From contig NZ_CP121685.1 in the NCBI RefSeq assembly GCF_029760915.1, positions 1,524,001 through 1,588,000 of the forward strand: 64,000 nt of DNA, in the 5' to 3' direction. Source of the DNA: Olleya sp. YS. Lineage in GTDB: Bacteria; Bacteroidota; Bacteroidia; Flavobacteriales; Flavobacteriaceae. The position numbers and the translations under genes were made by a program. Under the pieces are notes generated by a model. The model was given only the letters and a program-made list of their open reading frames with translations, had not been told where the DNA came from and ran no database searches. Below, piece by piece: positions 8,169 through 40,217 of this stretch (its first letter is position 1; every line of letters begins with the position of its first letter).

Positions 8169-9422
8169 ATGATTTTAGAAATGAAAGTGCCTTCTCCAGG
8201 CGAATCTATCACAGAAGTTGAAATAGCAGAATGGTTAGTTCAAGATGGTGATTATGTAGAAAAAGACCAAGCTATTGCAGAAGTGGATAGTGATAAAGCT
8301 ACTTTAGAATTACCAGCAGAGGCAAGCGGAACAATTACGCTTAAAGCAGAAGAAGGTGATGCTGTAGCTGTTGGACAAGTGGTTTGTTTAATTGATACTA
8401 CTGCTGAAGCGCCAGCAAGCAGTACTTATGAAGGAGGTGATGAAGGTGGTAATACTAAAGCAGAACAAGATTTAGCTAAAGATCAAAAAGCAACTCCTAA
8501 TAAGGAGAATCATGAAAAAGCTCCAAATCCAGCACAAAAAACATACGCTTCAGGTGTAGCTAGTCCTGCTGCAAAGAAAATATTAGCTGAAAAAAATATG
8601 GAAGCATCATCTGTTTCTGGAACAGGAAAAGATGGTCGTATTACAAAAGAAGATGCAGTAAATGCTGTGCCATCTATGGGTACACCAACAGGAGGAAACA
8701 GAGGGACATCACGTAGTAAAATGTCTATGTTACGACGTAAAGTTGCAGAACGTTTAGTGGAAGCTAAAAATACAACTGCAATGTTAACAACGTTTAACGA
8801 AGTTGATATGTCTCCAATTTTTGCTTTAAGAAAAGAGTATAAAGAAACTTTTAAATCTAAACATGGTGTTAGTTTAGGGTTTATGTCGTTTTTTACTTTA
8901 GCAGTAGTTAGAGCATTAAAGTTGTATCCTGCAGTAAATTCTATGATTGACGGTAAAGAAATGCTGTCATACGATTTTGTAGACATTAGTATAGCAGTTT
9001 CTGGACCAAAAGGTTTAATGGTTCCAGTAATTAGAAATGCTGAGAATTTGAGCTTTAGAGGTGTAGAATCTGAAGTTAAGCGTTTAGCAATACGCGCTAG
9101 AGATGGACAGATTACAGTAGATGAAATGACAGGTGGAACTTTTACTATATCTAATGGAGGCGTTTTTGGTAGCATGTTATCTACACCAATTATTAATCCT
9201 CCTCAAAGTGGTATTTTAGGAATGCACAATATTGTGGAGCGTCCTGTTGCAATTGACGGTAAGGTAGAAATTAGACCTATCATGTATGTTGCTTTATCTT
9301 ACGATCACAGAATAATTGATGGTAAAGAAAGCGTAGGGTTTTTAGTAGCAGTAAAAGAAGCACTTGAAAATCCAACAGAACTGTTAATGAATGATGATAT
9401 TAAAAAGGCTTTAGAGCTTTAA
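8169..9422 (+). CDS. sucB: Dihydrolipoyllysine-residue succinyltransferase (2-oxoglutarate dehydrogenase E2)
   Basis: 417 residues. Lipoyl domain at residues 1-77 with the lipoylated lysine in [14 protein letters not shown] proline/alanine linker follows, then a peripheral subunit-binding domain around residues 125-165 ([12 protein letters not shown] ... [12 protein letters not shown]), and a catalytic acyltransferase domain ending with the active-site motif [10 protein letters not shown]. Transfers succinyl from E1-bound lipoamide to CoA. Also called odhB. A perfect hairpin followed by a T run sits 23 bp after the stop, so it is the last gene of the operon. Confidence 0.97.
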
Positions 9423-9438
9423 TCAGTACATTAAAATA

Positions 9439-9473
9439 AAAAAAAGGAGTAACAATTGTTACTCCTTTTTTTT
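9439..9473. terminator. Bidirectional intrinsic terminator
   Basis: A 20-bp perfect palindrome with core GGAGTAAC at 9446-9465 is flanked by A tracts on the left and T tracts on the right, so it can end transcription on both strands. On the plus strand it closes the sucA-sucB operon. On the minus strand it lies 5 bp after the stop of the small ORF at 9478-9588. Confidence 0.9.
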
Positions 9474-9477
9474 GATA

Positions 9478-9588
9478 TTATTTATCAAAATAAATAAAGA
9501 GATTAAACGAGATTATAATTAATACAATAATAATTATACAGGCAAAAATAATACGGTTTTGTTCTCTTGTTCTTTTCTCTAAATCCAC
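9478..9588 (-). CDS. Candidate 36-residue single-span membrane microprotein
   Basis: GTG start at 9586-9588 and TAA stop at 9478-9480. The product has a charged N-terminus (MDLEKRTREQNR) followed by about 20 hydrophobic residues (mostly I, L, V, F) and a short FDK tail, which is a credible N-in membrane anchor. It is bracketed by the terminator of the last array unit upstream and the bidirectional terminator downstream, so it has its own transcription space. Against it are the non-ATG start and the bias of AT-rich DNA toward hydrophobic codons. Confidence 0.4.
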   Translation of the reverse strand: MDLEKRTREQNRIIFACIIIIVLIIISFNLFIYFDK

Positions 9589-9601
9589 GCTTTTTAGATT
9601 T

Positions 9602-9672
9602 TAAATTAAAACTCTGCACCATTACAGTGCAGAGTTTCCTTAAATAATTCTCCCTAAGAACTAATTAATAGC
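9602..9672 (-). ncRNA. Predicted small RNA, array unit 5
   Basis: Predicted start about 5 nt after the -7-like box TAACTTGC (9677-9684). First hairpin at 9645-9663 has a 7-bp stem, including one G-U pair, closing a CCCTA loop on the plus strand (TAGGG in the RNA). Second hairpin at 9609-9637 has an 11-bp perfect stem (CTCTGCAC core) and a weak T tract. This unit's terminator stem is unlike the GAGCTTT stems of the other units, although its layout is the same. Ends are estimates. Confidence 0.6.
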
Positions 9673-9707
9673 ATTTGCAAGTTATGACATATATCTGACC
9701 TGTGAAA

Positions 9708-9723
9708 TACGTAGAACTACGTA
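9708..9723 (-). promoter_or_regulatory. Palindromic operator of array unit 5
   Basis: Perfect inverted repeat TACGTAG-AA-CTACGTA on the plus strand. It stands exactly 23 nt upstream, in the minus sense, of the -7-like box at 9677-9684. Proposed site for the adjacent LuxR-type regulator; that pairing is inference. Confidence 0.65.
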
Positions 9724-9742
9724 TTTTTATTTGACTTTATGA

Positions 9743-9809
9743 CAAAAAAAAGCTCCAAACAAATTAATGTTTAAGAGCTTTCTCAATTCTCCCTAAATTG
9801 ATTAATAAC
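9743..9809 (-). ncRNA. Predicted small RNA, array unit 4
   Basis: Box TAACTTGC at 9814-9821. First hairpin 9784-9800 has stem CAATT/AATTG with loop TAGGGAG in the RNA. Terminator hairpin 9749-9781 has an AAAGCTC/GAGCTTT stem plus an inner AAAC/GTTT stem, followed on the minus strand by eight T residues. About 67 nt long if the start is five bases after the box. Confidence 0.65.
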
Positions 9810-9844
9810 AACTGCAAGTTAAAGTACATATATGACCTATGAAA

Positions 9845-9860
9845 TACGTAGAACTACGGA
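9845..9860 (-). promoter_or_regulatory. Palindromic operator of array unit 4
   Basis: TACGTAGAACTACGGA on the plus strand, one mismatch from the perfect palindrome, again exactly 23 nt from its -7-like box. Confidence 0.6.
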
Positions 9861-9879
9861 TTTTTATTTGACTTTAAAA

Positions 9880-9948
9880 CAAAAAAAAGCTCCAAAACAA
9901 ACTTGTGTTTCAGAGCTTTTCCAATTTTCCCATAAATTGATTAATAGC
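9880..9948 (-). ncRNA. Predicted small RNA, array unit 3
   Basis: Box TATCTTGC at 9953-9960. First hairpin 9922-9939 has stem CAATTT/AAATTG with loop ATGGGA in the RNA. Terminator hairpin 9885-9920 has an AAAAGCTC/GAGCTTTT outer stem and a T tract on the minus strand. The stem is one base pair longer than in unit 4 through paired changes. Confidence 0.65.
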
Positions 9949-9983
9949 ATTTGCAAGATAAAACATTTAATTGACCTGTGAAA

Positions 9984-9999
9984 TACGTAGAACTACGTA
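9984..9999 (-). promoter_or_regulatory. Palindromic operator of array unit 3
   Basis: Perfect TACGTAG-AA-CTACGTA, 23 nt from the box at 9953-9960. Confidence 0.65.
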
Positions 10000-10015
10000 T
10001 TTTTATTTAAACTTT

Positions 10016-10085
10016 AAAATAAAAAAAGCTCTAAAACACATAAAGTATTTTAAAGCTTTTTAAGGTTATAGGGTTGATTAATAGC
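10016..10085 (-). ncRNA. Degenerate array unit 2
   Basis: Box TATCTTGC at 10090-10097 and the GCTATTAAT block are kept, and an imperfect terminator hairpin lies at 10023-10061 with a T tract. The GGG-loop hairpin is missing: the corresponding stretch reads AACCCTATAACC in the RNA and does not fold. The operator equivalent near 10120-10135 matches at only 10 of 16 positions. It looks like a decaying copy. Confidence 0.45.
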
Positions 10086-10147
10086 ATGTGCAAGATATAT
10101 AATTACGTCAATGCAAAACCACGTATAAACACCTGTTTTAATTTTTT

Positions 10148-10221
10148 TGAAAAAAGAAAAGCTCTACTTAATACAAGTAGAGCTTTTTTCTGAATTCCCT
10201 TCAGAATGATTAATTAATAGC
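10148..10221 (-). ncRNA. Predicted small RNA, array unit 1 (closest to regulator)
   Basis: Box TATCTTTA at 10226-10233. First hairpin 10188-10206 has the perfect 7-bp stem TTCTGAA/TTCAGAA around GGGAA, with a sequence wholly different from the CAATT stems of units 3 and 4. Terminator hairpin at 10157-10187 has a 13-bp stem with core GCTCTACTT, followed by a T-rich tract on the minus strand. Confidence 0.65.
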
Positions 10222-10256
10222 ATTGTAAAGATAAATATAATCTTAGACGCATACAA

Positions 10257-10272
10257 TACGTAGAACTACGTA
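10257..10272 (-). promoter_or_regulatory. Palindromic operator of array unit 1, overlapping the end of the regulator gene
   Basis: Perfect TACGTAG-AA-CTACGTA that spans the last codons and the stop (10266-10268) of the response regulator gene. It lies 23 nt from its -7-like box at 10226-10233. Confidence 0.65.
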
Positions 10273-10967: not shown

Positions 10968-11420
10968 TTAGACTAATTTTTTCAAGTACAAATATTTTTT
11001 TTCGTAATCAATAATTCCTTTTACTTTTTTTAAGATATCTGCACCAATAATACCATCAACTGGTTGTGCATTATGATTTATTAGTGCCGAGTTAACATGA
11101 CTTAAATCAAATAAAACCAATGCAGCTTTATCAATTTTAAGGCGTCCAATTTTAATGGTATTGTTTTTTGAGACTTGAGTAGCCATATTAGTAGCACCAG
11201 CTCCTGCTGCTAATATATTAGAATCTTTTACTTTTAGAAGGTTGAATTTTTGAGTGGCTTCAAAGCCAACGCAACTGTTAGAGGCTCCAGTATCTAGTAT
11301 AAACAGTCCTTTAATGTTGTTAATAGAAGCTTTAATTTCAAAATGATTGGTTTTGGTTAGTTTTAGTTTGACACGTATATATCCTTTGTCGAATAAAAAA
11401 TCTTTAAGAGTTTGTTCCAT
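10968..11420 (-). CDS. Retropepsin-like (clan AA) aspartic protease
   Basis: 150 residues, one protease lobe, as expected for a homodimeric retropepsin-type enzyme. The catalytic motif is FILDTGASNSCVG, with D43-T44-G45. The hydrophobic-hydrophobic-glycine partner motif is GIIGADILKK near residues 122-131. There is no signal peptide, so it is probably cytoplasmic. Its start overlaps the end of the CHAT gene by 17 bp and the response regulator begins 60 bp further on, suggesting one transcript. Substrate unknown; the neighbouring regulator or peptidase is an obvious candidate, by inference only. Confidence 0.85.
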   Translation of the reverse strand: MEQTLKDFLFDKGYIRVKLKLTKTNHFEIKASINNIKGLFILDTGASNSCVGFEATQKFNLLKVKDSNILAAGAGATNMATQVSKNNTIKIGRLKIDKAALVLFDLSHVNSALINHNAQPVDGIIGADILKKVKGIIDYEKKYLYLKKLV

Positions 11421-13971
11421 TATAGCGTCTGCGTATTACGAACCATAAAAGTAAGGCAATCCCGAAGCCAACAAAAGCAAAAACAATATAATTTGACATA
11501 CTTGATGTTGTTTTTGGTGTCAAATCGCCATAATACATAAAAGCGCTCCAGTAATATGGTGATTTTTTGATATTTGAAATAGAAGAATTATTCAAATATC
11601 CAACTTTTGAAAGATGATTGGCTACAAAAGCCGATTGCGTTTTGCTGTAGCTTTTGTAAAACGACGCCATTAATTGCGACGTTGATAAATCATTAATTTT
11701 CCATAATGAAAACAATAAATTTTCTACTCCTGCAAATTGAAATCCTCTAGCCAAATTCATGCTACCTTCTCCTTTTTGAAGTTTTCCAATACCAGTTTCG
11801 CATGCACTTAAAACCACCAGATTATTTTGAATATTTAGGCTGTACAATTCGTTTAAAAATAGTTTTTGGTCAATAAAATCAATATTTGCAGGAATTGTAA
11901 AAGTACCACTACTAGCATGAGTCGATAAGTGTAAAACACCAAACTGATTAGCTTGTGCTAATACATCTTGTTTGGTCGCTGCATCATACATTAAAAATTT
12001 AGCATTGACGTACTCTTCAATGCTTTCTGCTTCGTCTAAAGAGTAGGTTAATTTGGCATCGGTTTTGTCAAAAACAGGAAATACACCTAACACCAAATTG
12101 CTATACTTAAAGGGTTTGTTATTTGCATAAAACAATGCACTTACGTTATAAGCCAACTGTTGTTGTGTGGCAACAAATGGCATTTTAGAATAATTTGTAG
12201 AGGTTGTTTGTTGGGATAATAAGCTTTCAAAAGGTATAAAGTTTAAAAAACCATCTGGTATAACTACCACATTTTTACTTGTTGATGTGATTTCAAATCC
12301 TAACAGTTGATACAATTTAAAAGCGTCGTTAGTAAATTGCGGAATGTTATTATTTATTACAGACGAATTATTGAAATAATCAATATACTGTTCAATGGTA
12401 GTATTAAAATGGTCATCACGCTCAATCTTAAATAAGTCTATGGTTGATGGAGATATTAAAAATTGAAAAACAGCAGTTTCGCCATAAAAATATTCAACTA
12501 AAACAGCGTTATCTTTTAAAAGCTTGTCTTGAATAGTTTTAGTAGATAATTTTTGATTGTTAATATTAGAATATTTAGTATCAATCTCTTTTTTTAATTC
12601 TTTTAAAGCTATACTGGTTTCAGTCAGTTCTTGACTAATCTCGTTTATTTGTTTTGAATTATTTTGATATTGTGCTTTTATTATGGAGTTGGTTAATCGT
12701 TCTTGTTGCTGCAATAAAGTTTGCTCTTTAAGTAGCAAACTATCGTTAGGAAATTGTTGTAACAGTGATTTTTTACCAATAGTTTCTTTTAAAATGGAAG
12801 CTTTATTTTTTTCTGCGTAAGCAAAAGCTTGGTGTAAAACATCTACGTTTCCTTCTTTTTGATAGGCATCATATAGCAAGCTAATACATGTTTCGCTACG
12901 TGTTCTATTAGCATTTAAATGAATGAGTTTTGCCTCTTGAGAGGTAATGTTGTCTTGCAATAATTCTGAAATATAAAAACTACGATCATAACAGGCTAAA
13001 GCATTATTAAAGTTAGATTGAAGCTGAGCCAATAAATCAAAAATGTCTATAAATGTATTGTCTGCATATAAATCGTCTTGTTTTGGAATATCTTGTCCAT
13101 TATGAGTTGGTATAAGAGTAATTAATGCTAATTTTAATTTTTTTGAAGCTGAATTAAAATCATTTAATTTAAAGTGAAGTTGTGCTTCTTCAACACTTAG
13201 TTTAGCATATTCTCTTGCAGAAATTTTTGCTTTATCAATATGCAAAAACTTTAAATTAAATAATGACAAAGCCTTTTTGTAGTCTTTATCTTTTAAAGCT
13301 AATTGATATTTGGTTTGGTTGTCATGTTTGGTGCTTAAAACATTAGCGTCTTGAATAGTTGCTTTTTTTGAACTTACAATTTGACTATTTGTTTTTATAC
13401 GTTGTAGTTTTTCTATCTGAGTATTACTAATACCTTTTATTTTCAATCCTTTGTCAACAATCTCAATTGCAGATTGGTGTTTACCAATAGTAAAATATAA
13501 TTGCGATAAATTTATTGCTCCACTAATTCTGTGTTGATTGTTTTTTTCTTTTTCTGCTAAAAAAATATATTGTTTTATAACGTTTTCTGCATTAGTATAG
13601 TCACCAATTTTATTATAAAGTGTGCTAAGATTTTTAAGACAATTCTCGGTAATGTCGTATTTAAACACACCTTTAATTTCTGACTTATAAATTGTCCAAG
13701 CGTTTTCGTATGCAGCAATAGCTTGCATTTGTTGGTTAGTATTAAATAAGTAAAAGCCTTTATTGACTAATAAATTGAGGTAAGCAAAATACTGATCTTT
13801 AGTTTTTAATTGAGATTTAAAACTGGCTTCTTTTTCAATTAAAGTTTGAAACGTTGTAGCGTTTGGATTTACATTAAAAGTTTCTGTAGCCACATATATA
13901 TCTTCTTCCAAATTTTGCGAAAAGCCATTCGCAAAAACTAAAAAGAAAATAATAATGAGGCTGTTTTTCAT
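11404..13971 (-). CDS. CHAT-domain peptidase with TPR repeats and C-terminal membrane anchor
   Basis: 855 residues. Signal peptide (cleavage near residue 19, GFSQN), then TPR-like helical repeats over roughly residues 30-400, a coiled-coil stretch near 420-480, and a caspase-like CHAT domain. Its catalytic dyad is visible as H685 in LHLSTHASSG and C724 in LSACETGIGK. One membrane helix at about residues 828-848 is followed by RRRY, placing the peptidase in the periplasm and the tail in the cytoplasm. First of three overlapping or closely spaced genes (CHAT, retropepsin, response regulator). CHAT proteins usually act as signal-activated proteases; the activating input here is unknown. Confidence 0.9.
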   Translation of the reverse strand: MKNSLIIIFFLVFANGFSQNLEEDIYVATETFNVNPNATTFQTLIEKEASFKSQLKTKDQYFAYLNLLVNKGFYLFNTNQQMQAIAAYENAWTIYKSEIKGVFKYDITENCLKNLSTLYNKIGDYTNAENVIKQYIFLAEKEKNNQHRISGAINLSQLYFTIGKHQSAIEIVDKGLKIKGISNTQIEKLQRIKTNSQIVSSKKATIQDANVLSTKHDNQTKYQLALKDKDYKKALSLFNLKFLHIDKAKISAREYAKLSVEEAQLHFKLNDFNSASKKLKLALITLIPTHNGQDIPKQDDLYADNTFIDIFDLLAQLQSNFNNALACYDRSFYISELLQDNITSQEAKLIHLNANRTRSETCISLLYDAYQKEGNVDVLHQAFAYAEKNKASILKETIGKKSLLQQFPNDSLLLKEQTLLQQQERLTNSIIKAQYQNNSKQINEISQELTETSIALKELKKEIDTKYSNINNQKLSTKTIQDKLLKDNAVLVEYFYGETAVFQFLISPSTIDLFKIERDDHFNTTIEQYIDYFNNSSVINNNIPQFTNDAFKLYQLLGFEITSTSKNVVVIPDGFLNFIPFESLLSQQTTSTNYSKMPFVATQQQLAYNVSALFYANNKPFKYSNLVLGVFPVFDKTDAKLTYSLDEAESIEEYVNAKFLMYDAATKQDVLAQANQFGVLHLSTHASSGTFTIPANIDFIDQKLFLNELYSLNIQNNLVVLSACETGIGKLQKGEGSMNLARGFQFAGVENLLFSLWKINDLSTSQLMASFYKSYSKTQSAFVANHLSKVGYLNNSSISNIKKSPYYWSAFMYYGDLTPKTTSSMSNYIVFAFVGFGIALLLWFVIRRRYNGTNS

Positions 13972-28145: not shown

Positions 28146-29576
28146 TTAAAACTCGGCATTTTGGGGTGTTCTTGGATAAGGAATGACATCTCTAATATTG
28201 GTCATTCCTGTTGCAAACATCACTAAACGTTCAAAACCTAAACCAAAACCAGAGTGTACAGCTGTACCATATTTACGTAAGTCTAAGTACCACCATAATT
28301 CTTCTTCAGGAATGTCTAATGCTGCCATTTTTTCTTTTAAGACTTCAAGACGCTCCTCACGTTGCGATCCACCAACAATCTCTCCAATACCAGGAAATAA
28401 AATATCCATAGCACGTACTGTTTTCCCATCTTCATTTAAGCGCATGTAAAAAGCTTTAATGTTTGCTGGATAATCAAATAAAATTACTGGACATTTAAAA
28501 TGTTTTTCTACAAGAAAGCGTTCGTGTTCTGACTGTAAATCGGCTCCCCATTCTTCAATAATATAATTGAATTTCTTTTTCTTGTTTGGTTTACTATTAC
28601 GTAAAATATCAATAGCTTCGGTATAACTAACTCGCTTAAAGTTATTTTCGGTAACAAATTTAAGTTTTTCGATTAAGCGTAAATCGCTACGTTCTGCTTG
28701 AGGTTTTGTTTTTTCTTCATCAAAAAGACGTTGGTCTAAAAACTCTAAATCTTCTTGATTGTGTTCTAATATATAGCTTATAACAGATTTCATAAAATCT
28801 TCAGCTAAATCCATATTACCAGCTAAATCCATAAAAGCTACCTCAGGCTCAATCATCCAGAATTCTGCCAAGTGACGAGATGTATTTGAATTTTCTGCTC
28901 TAAAAGTTGGACCAAAAGTGTAGACTTTACCTAATGACATTGCATAAGTTTCAGCTTCTAACTGACCAGAAACGGTCAAGTTAGTTTCCTTGCCAAAAAA
29001 GTCTTCTTTATAATCTATAGTTCCATCTTCATTTAATGGTGGTTTTTTCTGATCTAGCGTGCTAACTCTAAACATCTCACCAGCACCTTCTGCATCACTG
29101 CCAGTAATTATTGGTGTGTGCATATAATAAAAACCATTATCGTTAAAATATTTATGAATTGCAAAAGATAATGAAGAACGTAAACGCATGACAGCACTAA
29201 ACGTATTGGTTCTGGTGCGTAAATGTGCGTTTTCGCGTAAAAATTCGAAGCTATGTTTTTTAGGTTGTATTGGATAGGTTTCAGGATCAGAATCTCCTAA
29301 AATTTCAATTTTAGTAACGCTAACTTCAACATTTTGCCCTTTTCCTTGACTTTCTACTAAATCACCTGTAATAGATACTGCAGCACCAGTAGTGATTCGT
29401 TTTAGTAAGTCTTCGTCTGTATTTTCAAAATCTACTACGCATTGGATATTTTGCAATGTAGAACCATCATTTAATGCAATAAAACGATTAGCTCTAAAGG
29501 TACGTACCCAACCTTTTATATGTACTTCTTGTAATTTGGTTTCTTTTAGTAATGTAGCGACTGTGTATGAGTTCAT
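28146..29576 (-). CDS. asnS: Asparaginyl-tRNA synthetase
   Basis: 476 residues. N-terminal OB-fold anticodon-binding domain ([22 protein letters not shown]) and a class II catalytic domain with motif 2 ([25 protein letters not shown]) and motif 3 ([18 protein letters not shown]). These and the NSNTSRH signature distinguish it from aspartyl-tRNA synthetase. Located 53 bp before rpoN on the same strand. Confidence 0.97.
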
Positions 29577-38735: not shown

Positions 38736-40109
38736 TTACTCGTTTGTTTTTTTTAAAGTAAATTGTAATGGTTTTTTGAAGATTTCCCAAAACAGAATAC
38801 TAAACACAATGAGATACTCCAAACCAATAACCCATAAATTCTCTATATTGTCTGCATTTGCATACGCCAAATAGCTTATAATTATTATAAAACTCCACAC
38901 GATAGCATACTTGTAATTAGTAAACACACTTAGTAGTAATATAGTTGCTATATACCAAGGATGTACAGTTGTACTTAATAGTAGATAACAAGTCATTGCA
39001 AATAGCATACTTACCATTAAAATAGGTAGATTTTGATTTTTTCTTTTTAAAGCTAATATCCATATAATTATAAAAACTAGTAGTGGTAGAATTTTTCCTA
39101 TTAGAGCTATCTGATTATATCCTGTAATTTGATATCCAATAGCTCTTAATATATAATATATACTAGCATTAAACTCGAAATTACTAAACCATAAACCTAC
39201 AGTTTTCGAATAATTATTAACGAATTGCATTGAGAAAAATGGGACGAATAGTATTATAGTTGTAATACCAATAATTATATAAAAACTGATAAGCTTTTTA
39301 AAATCGGTGTTATTTTTTTTAGTTCTAAACCATTTTATAAATAATGGTAAAAACAAAAGTGGTACTAATTTAGTTGATATAGATAAAGCAAAAATTATTG
39401 CTGACCATTTCCATTTATTAGTGCTTAGCAAATACAAACTAAAGATTAAAAAGAATAACATGATACCTTCAAAATGAAGATTACCTGTCAGCTCTATTAT
39501 TATAAAAGGATTTAAAGTATACCAGAATATTTTATGCTTTTTTAAACCCAGTTTTGTTAAAAGTTTACCGCCAAAATATAATGTCCCAATATCTGCTGCT
39601 ATGATTATTAATCTTAATCCTATTACAGAGCCTAAAATACTACAAGTAGAAAACAGGTTAGCAATAATAAAAAACAACTGATTTAATGGTGGGTAATTTG
39701 AATAATGACTGGCATTTAATACTTGCATACCATTAACCAACTCTTGTGCTTGATTAATAGGGAATTGTCCATCGGAAATGAAGCTTTGAGGAGTGTATAA
39801 ATAGGGATTAATACCTTGTAAAATTAGTCGTCCATCCCAAATAAAACGATAAAAATCTTGTGAAAGATTTGGAATAGCTAACAAAAATACTAGTCTGCTA
39901 ATAATAGCTATAATCACTAATAATTTAAAATTGTTTTTGTTTTGTTGAATTATTTTATAGAAGCAAATAAATAGTCCTGTGTATAATACTATTAGTTTTA
40001 AATAGTCAGTTCTAACCAAATCATAAGCAAACACACCATACATAAACAAGCTTAACACTATTAAAAAGGTTGTTAATTTGTTTTTTTTTAAAATAAATGT
40101 GTTTAGCAT
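38736..40109 (-). CDS. GT87-like polyprenol-dependent mannosyltransferase
   Basis: 457 residues from ATG 40107-40109; an alternative start at 40139 would add ten residues. About eleven to twelve membrane helices. The first large loop has the DFYRFIWDGRLILQGINPYLY motif typical of polyprenyl-phosphate-dependent GT-C mannosyltransferases. Final gene of a minus-strand group with two GT2 enzymes, suggesting glycolipid or surface-glycan synthesis. Acceptor unknown. Confidence 0.8.
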   Translation of the reverse strand: MLNTFILKKNKLTTFLIVLSLFMYGVFAYDLVRTDYLKLIVLYTGLFICFYKIIQQNKNNFKLLVIIAIISRLVFLLAIPNLSQDFYRFIWDGRLILQGINPYLYTPQSFISDGQFPINQAQELVNGMQVLNASHYSNYPPLNQLFFIIANLFSTCSILGSVIGLRLIIIAADIGTLYFGGKLLTKLGLKKHKIFWYTLNPFIIIELTGNLHFEGIMLFFLIFSLYLLSTNKWKWSAIIFALSISTKLVPLLFLPLFIKWFRTKKNNTDFKKLISFYIIIGITTIILFVPFFSMQFVNNYSKTVGLWFSNFEFNASIYYILRAIGYQITGYNQIALIGKILPLLVFIIIWILALKRKNQNLPILMVSMLFAMTCYLLLSTTVHPWYIATILLLSVFTNYKYAIVWSFIIIISYLAYANADNIENLWVIGLEYLIVFSILFWEIFKKPLQFTLKKTNE

Positions 40110-40140
40110 AACGGTTTGCGTTAGCGGTTGAAATGGCATC

Positions 40141-40173
40141 CTTTATTTTGCTGCCATATATGGCAAAATAAAG
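40141..40173. repeat. Perfect inverted repeat upstream of the mannosyltransferase
   Basis: Arms CTTTATTTTGC (40141-40151) and GCAAAATAAAG (40163-40173) with a nested TGCC...GGCA palindrome in the middle. Between two co-directional genes. It could be an attenuator or a protein site; function unknown. Confidence 0.5.
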
Positions 40174-40217
40174 ATATAATGTAAGACGCGACCCTTGTGG
40201 TAACGCTATAAAAAAAA

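Follow-up and report, generated by a model that had tools for sequence, protein, structure and literature searches.

This locus raises the question of whether the tandem array of short repeats behind a LuxR-type response regulator gene of Olleya sp. YS is a set of small-RNA genes under the control of that regulator and, if so, how such RNAs would act. The first-pass annotation of the window, i.e., the whole stretch of 64,000 nucleotides analyzed here, had described five minus-strand units with a period of 136–139 bp 3′ of the regulator gene (RR1), and our analysis confirmed this array. The features of the region are as follows.

8169–9422, plus strand: 2-oxoacid dehydrogenase acyltransferase gene, convergent with the small gene
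9437–9474, bidirectional: terminator-like hairpin separating the small gene from the acyltransferase gene
9478–9588, minus strand: small gene 3′ of the last unit (36 aa, one predicted membrane helix, GTG start)
9604–9672, minus strand: predicted RNA unit 5 (last), with GGG hairpin and terminal hairpin CTCTGCACTGTAATGGTGCAGAG; weaker T run, missed by the consensus scan
9708–9723, minus strand: candidate operator of unit 5, exact palindrome
9742–9809, minus strand: predicted RNA unit 4, with GGG-loop hairpin, terminal hairpin and T run; missed by the consensus scan
9845–9860, minus strand: candidate operator of unit 4, palindrome with one mismatch
9880–9948, minus strand: predicted RNA unit 3, with GGG-loop hairpin and terminator
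9984–9999, minus strand: candidate operator of unit 3, exact palindrome
10017–10085, minus strand: predicted RNA unit 2, with box and terminator, without in-register operator or GGG hairpin
10150–10221, minus strand: predicted RNA unit 1, with GCTATTAAT, hairpin TTCTGAA-GGGAA-TTCAGAA and terminator; ends approximate
10226–10233, minus strand: −7 box TATCTTTA of unit 1
10257–10272, minus strand: candidate operator of unit 1, exact palindrome, overlapping the RR1 stop codon
10266–10907, minus strand: RR1, receiver-GerE (LuxR/NarL-type) response regulator (Pfam Response_reg 7e-24, GerE 1e-10)
10968–11420, minus strand: retropepsin-like aspartic protease gene, upstream of RR1
11404–13971, minus strand: gene for a CHAT protein with TPR-like repeats, next upstream of the aspartic protease

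The distance of 23 nt between palindrome and promoter box that had been claimed for four of the five units was borne out by measurement, and in four of five the palindrome lies exactly 35 nt from the G of a conserved start, GCTATTAAT. The starts predicted earlier at 9672, 9809, 9948, and 10221 coincide with this G, which in unit 2 lies at 10085. With two or fewer mismatches, the palindrome occurs five times in the 64-kb window (four times in the array and once at 28274), where 0.08 matches were expected, and none of 100 shuffles of the window reached five matches, so chance is excluded for the array. Each unit had also been said to end in a hairpin with a T run on the minus strand only. Folding found the terminal hairpin in all five units, and the T run is weaker in the last one. 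A consensus terminator scan recovered the terminators of three of the five units, each on the minus strand; it gave five sites in the stretch against 0.2 expected, the remaining two being the single bidirectional hairpin at 9437–9474. RNA folding gave whole-unit z values of −3.4 to −5.7 across the five units; in four of them, the first hairpin has GGG within or next to its loop. The small membrane-protein gene and the absence of this hairpin from the unit at 10085 had been overlooked in the annotation.

To what extent this arrangement is conserved was analyzed in relatives. A genome scan with RR1 gave 339 relatives, of which the best 80 loci were kept, including those of the Flavobacteriaceae Olleya, Mesoflavibacter, Bizionia, Lacinutrix, Algibacter, Flavivirga, Hyunsoonleella, and Tamlana; with the window, these form a set of 81 loci. 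Units were sought by GCTATTAAT with at most one mismatch, so the conservation of this motif is partly a result of selection. The 221 candidates were reduced to 213 units by removing those with more than four operator mismatches or a spacing outside 33–37 nt, and unit 2 of the window was among those dropped. All 81 loci carry at least one unit 3′ of RR1, with one to seven units per locus. The distance from palindrome to G is exactly 35 nt in 192 of the 213 units, and neighboring units are 134–159 bp apart in 92 of 132 cases. In the 192 units with this spacing, TA at −12/−11 and TT at −8/−7 of the box are invariant, and the box was not a selection criterion. A script found a terminator in 184 of the 213 units, and in 113 of the 132 inner units. 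The palindrome with two or fewer mismatches is concentrated downstream of RR1: the 167 kb there contain 179 copies, spread over 71 of the 80 loci, and the other 664 kb of these loci contain 2. In four diverged RR1 relatives (L147, L148, L152, and L193), the operator reads TACGTAACGTTACGTA in place of TACGTAGTTCTACGTA, which offers a natural test of the co-evolution of regulator and operator.

The genes around RR1 are shared to different degrees. In the best 80 of the 339 loci, a relative of the aspartic protease is present in all 80, of the acyltransferase in 63, and of the CHAT protein in 42, the last counted within the fetched stretch; some stretches end early. Among the 25 NCBIfam matches listed for RR1, all, including NarL and UvrY/GacA, were below their cut-offs. 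In two relatives without units (L143 and L145), a TPR histidine kinase sits between the aspartic protease and RR1; in the window, a CHAT/TPR-like protein is the neighbor of the protease and the response regulator.

The predicted RNA of each unit is approximately 65 nt long and consists of a 5′ GCUAUUAAU, a short hairpin usually with a GGG loop, and the terminator. GGG lies in the loop or closing pair in 102 of the 132 inner units, and 30 are without such a hairpin; of the 81 last units, 23 have GGG, 31 a GG- or GAGA-type hairpin, and 27 others. Of the 213 units, 142 have GGGA between +10 and +48, vs. 55 of 1,620 random stretches. Both hairpins covary in 54 units chosen from the 213, with 96.1% of cells paired and double changes in 15 of 20 pairs; the first hairpin was named from one unit and then counted on these 54, so the alignment leans toward the classic GGGA form. 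The covariation score of the 54 chosen units was 0.468, vs. 0.267 for shuffled alignments (none of 500 as high) and at most 0.152 when slid. RNAalifold, applied to 58 inner units, recovered the terminator alone. A comparison with Rfam, including Flavo-1, had been suggested, and no unit in the window or in 11 other loci reached a gathering cut-off; the best sub-threshold bit score was that of MicC (32.2 vs. 90). Flavo-1 itself (RF01705, 46 bits) lies at 40101–40197 on the plus strand of the window and is a different RNA, unrelated to the array.

A covariance model built for the unit (R1), with 13 nt of promoter included, matched 33 of 119 genomes, and RR1 relatives (E ≤ 1e-30, paralogues counted) were present in 48. 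Both occurred in 30 genomes, the RNA only in 3, RR1 only in 18, and neither in 68 (Fisher's exact test, p = 1.6e-12); the overlap is a hand count, in which G045, one of the 30, combines a weak non-array match with a 40% paralogue, and p values here are too small because the loci are related. The unit thus tracks the regulator, a point that the first-pass annotation had proposed to check. In the genome of Olleya sp. YS, R1 matched only the five array units (E ≤ 0.01), by which a dispersed repeat in this genome was rejected. Across the family, whose members are mostly marine bacteria, matches were found in 112 of 397 genomes at 5e-4, and 74 of 237 sampled genera were matched. Among the R1 matches listed, 80 further clusters were fetched, none overlapping the earlier loci, and one at a contig start was left out. 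Of these, 64 have an RR1 relative (44–77% identity) within the preceding 2.5 kb, 9 clearly and 1 doubtfully have a preceding PAS-GerE protein without a receiver domain, and 6 have neither regulator beside the RNA copy. The PAS-GerE domain call rests on Pfam matches of two such proteins from other loci, and the doubtful case (L268), counted by script among the 10, has only a weak opposite-strand match. Six more PAS-GerE loci with an RNA copy were read beyond the 80 clusters. In the 10 copies so classed, a putative operator, TACTCAA(A/T)TTGAGTA or a near variant, is placed 35 nt before the G; it reads TACTCAAATTGAGTA, vs. TACGTAGTTCTACGTA for RR1. The first 28 nt of the RNA are identical in 8 of these 10 copies and in 45 of the 64 RR1 copies. 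Single genomes add further contexts: in G014, two RNA copies with, by eye, a third palindrome lie behind a TPR kinase and an atypical receiver protein, for which HATPase_c and Response_reg scored under the Pfam cut-offs; in G017, one copy lies behind a TPR-LytTR protein; in G086, one copy lies behind a CHRD protein with no regulator; and locus L171 has a copy without a regulator beside it. These positions indicate that the RNA body was kept while regulator and operator changed. At two loci (L231 and L276), a unit lies behind the aspartic protease, and no RR1 gene was found within the preceding 2.5 kb.

Copies of the palindrome unrelated to any such regulator had been named as evidence against control by RR1. 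Four exact copies lie outside the array in the Olleya genome; three keep the 23-nt promoter geometry, and one, at 1919219, is without such a box. Palindromes with two or fewer mismatches occur at 15 places against 10 in the backwards control, a modest excess, and the combination of palindrome, 23 nt, and box with two or fewer mismatches at 16 against 9. This combination is found without mismatch at 215452, 256456, 421572, and 2422466 (L097, L098, L099, and L103), before open reading frames that by reading encode a 137-aa membrane protein, a 134-aa protein, an ATPase-like protein, and a 36-aa membrane protein. From their sequence, these four sites are probable further targets of RR1. L098 and L099 have similar-looking leaders. 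The genome also contains a paralogue, RR2 (2293929–2294552, minus strand, 42%; L156, C1:2291929–2297552), which is followed by a palindrome and, 55 nt further on, by a GCTATTAAT unit that R1 does not match and that, by eye, has a hairpin. The kinase linked to RR1 in relatives has its best match in this genome adjoining RR2, and it is not beside RR1 in the window.

The claim that the regulator has several small RNAs under its control is well supported by comparison, i.e., by the 179 vs. 2 palindromes, the fixed spacing, and the co-occurrence over 119 genomes; the pairing of RR1 with the palindrome is inferred. On this sequence evidence, RR1 very probably turns on the adjacent small-RNA genes. 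While sequence, spacing, conservation, covariation, context, and complementarity were seen directly, transcription, binding, activation, direction of control, and pairing in the cell enter the following mechanism as inferred steps. RR1 would bind the palindrome centered approximately 43 nt before the start and activate several tandem promoters in the geometry of a class-II activator, and each promoter would yield a small RNA of approximately 65 nt. This RNA, in which the 5′ GCUAUUAAU is unpaired and a hairpin presents GGG(A), would act in trans by base pairing, and one target in many relatives would be the RR1 mRNA leader itself, giving negative feedback. The last unit would be read past its weaker terminator into the gene for the small membrane protein, giving RR1 a second output. 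We regard this mechanism as reasonably probable: base-pairing RNAs acting in trans, feedback on RR1 in relatives, and the small gene as second output.

The evidence for pairing comes from the RR1 leaders, taken as the 75 nt before the start codon. In the 81 loci, TAATAGC, the complement of the RNA 5′ end, occurs in 40 of 81 RR1 leaders vs. 2 of 442 other ORF leaders, and CTCCC, which is complementary to the loop, in 19 of 81 vs. 0 of 442; the control leaders belong to any ORF of ≥150 codons in the same loci rather than to verified genes. TAATAGC ends 17–25 nt before the ATG in 38 of 40 leaders, and TCCC ends 4–11 nt before it in 32 of 37. The duplex energy, uncorrected for kinship, was −16.2 kcal/mol within the own locus, −15.4 for permuted loci (0 of 5,000 as low), and −12.4 for other leaders; only in 37 of 80 loci does the RR1 leader form the best duplex among all leaders. 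The presence of CTCTCT in the leader is associated with GAGAGA in the last unit (counts 13, 2, 20, and 46; p = 8e-5, kinship uncorrected), and no significant association was found between TCCC in the leader and GGGA in the last unit (p = 0.11). Counted by genus over 42 of the 80 named loci (19 genera), TAATAGC occurs in eight genera. Among the 15 more distant RR1 leaders of those listed, TAATAGC or TCCC is present in 8 of 11 with units and 0 of 4 without, and the PAS-GerE leaders listed contain no TAATAGC. In most leaders, the two complements are so ordered that one RNA cannot fill both as a single straight duplex. Among the Olleya RR1 leaders, TAATAGC occurs in 0 of 5 and TCCC in 3 of 5; the leader in the window is one of 14 among the 81 with neither complement, and its best duplex is weak (−11.4 kcal/mol). 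The position of these complements beside the start codon in relatives suggests feedback by base pairing, which is the best-supported reading of the leader sequences in relatives and is not extended to the species of the window. For other targets, the pattern TTAATAGC-N2-25-CTCCCT gave 29 matches in 22 of 40 chosen genomes vs. 5 backwards; 24 of the 29 were inside long reading frames, with no recurring gene. The pattern TAATAGC-N-TCCC-N-ATG gave 246 matches in 56 chosen genomes vs. 119 backwards (summed by hand) and matched RR1 itself in at least six genomes; of 19 hand-picked places, two were before plausible genes, in one genome each. In these two pattern searches, no second recurrent target besides the RR1 leader was found.

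The small gene supports a different account, in which the units are duplicated promoter–leader–attenuator regions of that gene and the short RNAs are by-products. The gene of the window has no NCBIfam match and a Pfam match only below the cut-off. An ORF of 25–60 aa (approximately 35 aa) with a single predicted helix lies 3′ of the last unit in 76 of the 81 loci; the opposite strand of these stretches gave 8 such ORFs and shuffled sequence 2. Unit 5 of the window probably doubles as the leader of its small gene. Such a gene also follows an inner unit in L147, L152, and L153. Moreover, in L143, L145, L149, and L151, a single palindrome (TACGTGTTTCCACGTA-like) and no RNA unit lies behind RR1, the four genomes have no R1 match, and in three of the four loci a small membrane-protein ORF is close behind the palindrome. 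In the RR1 tree, these four and two further rows without units form one clade (97/95), which belongs to a larger group with two unit-bearing clades; the tree gives no branching order for the three. A clade with operator and small gene only makes both origins possible: the units may have arisen by duplication of the promoter and leader of the small gene, or they may have been lost, and the tree does not decide. Against by-products, the copies behind PAS-GerE regulators, which have a different operator, retain the same initial 28 nt of the RNA, and most inner units end in a terminator; we consider this account rather improbable. Titration of RR1 by a DNA decoy, with RNAs that do not matter, would fit the up to seven units per locus and the eight exact palindromes in L017, but it has no need for covarying RNA stems, terminators, or precise promoter spacing, and its probability is very low.

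Another possibility is that the GGG-loop hairpins titrate some RNA-binding protein, as RsmX/Y/Z do with RsmA/CsrA. The compensatory variation of the stems around a GGG that most inner units retain in the loop, the higher dosage given by several copies, and the use of one RNA body by several regulators are all consistent with such a sponge. However, each RNA carries one motif, the RR1-leader complementarity would need a separate explanation, and the expected partners were not found. CsrA (PF02599) was over the cut-off in none of 40 genomes, that of Olleya included, with one sub-cut-off match (G039), and was found in 3 of 14 control genomes. RRM_1 (PF00076) was absent from the Olleya genome and found in 2 of 14 control genomes, one of them a Bacteroides, and Hfq was likewise not found in the Olleya genome. 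A literal Rsm system is thus unlikely, and a sponge in general is unlikely in our view, if less so than the by-product account.

Base pairing by trans-acting RNAs under RR1 control, our preferred reading, can be placed in a wider frame, which we put forward tentatively and at somewhat less than even probability. One RNA body would be a shared output device of Flavobacteriaceae, of which RR1, PAS-GerE proteins, the TPR kinase with atypical receiver, and perhaps TPR-LytTR proteins would each own an adjacent copy, with different operators (at the same distance for RR1 and PAS-GerE). Their signals would converge on a single post-transcriptional network that has no known Hfq, CsrA, or RRM partner and includes feedback on RR1, and the RNA may derive from the leader of the small gene. 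Such sharing of one RNA body among different regulators would, if true, be an unusual form of wiring. Since regulator, operator, RNA, start, and candidate target are named and 74 of the 237 genera matched, the circuit is directly testable.

Multicopy small RNAs controlled by a regulator are already known from Vibrio, Pseudomonas, and Listeria. For Flavobacteriaceae, the parts seen of the open-licence PMC papers searched describe none, and the conserved regulator–RNA module seen here was not found in them. In Pseudomonas, the LuxR-type response regulator GacA controls several small RNAs, RsmX/Y/Z, with G-rich hairpin loops. The first-pass annotation had drawn this analogy, and it holds for the layout, the type of regulator, the presence of several RNAs, and the G-rich loop; in contrast to Rsm, each RNA here has one motif, the operator is another one, and CsrA/RsmA was not found, while for control by RR1 only adjacency and operator geometry were observed. 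The complementarity to the RR1 leader points to base pairing and places the module closer to LuxO-Qrr and LisR-LhrC than to GacA-Rsm. Within Bacteroidota, FopS/GibS of Bacteroides thetaiotaomicron, described with RbpB in the part seen of PMC11697453, are likewise multicopy, short, terminator-ended small RNAs, but their copies are dispersed and their partner is an RRM protein, of a kind not found here; the GibS model scored 21.7 bits against the units (gathering score, 115), on the other strand. Rfp18 of Flavobacterium psychrophilum, a flavobacterial small RNA, is set apart from the array RNA by its description with a third stem-loop (PMC9723704, seen in part). LuxO of Vibrio is an NtrC-type sigma54 activator, and the Qrr RNAs exert feedback on luxO mRNA, as is predicted here for RR1. 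According to the parts seen of PMC2680268 and PMC3262071, this response regulator activates several redundant small RNAs, Qrr1–5, which resembles the arrangement at RR1. Unlike LuxO, RR1 is a receiver-GerE protein, its tandem copies lie beside the regulator, Hfq was not found, and the RNA is different. In Listeria, copies 1–4 of LhrC are in tandem. LhrC1–5 are reported as multicopy small RNAs strictly dependent on the response regulator LisR (PMC4132741, seen in part). The LhrC RNAs carry UCCC, whereas here GGGA is in the RNA and UCCC in many RR1 leaders.
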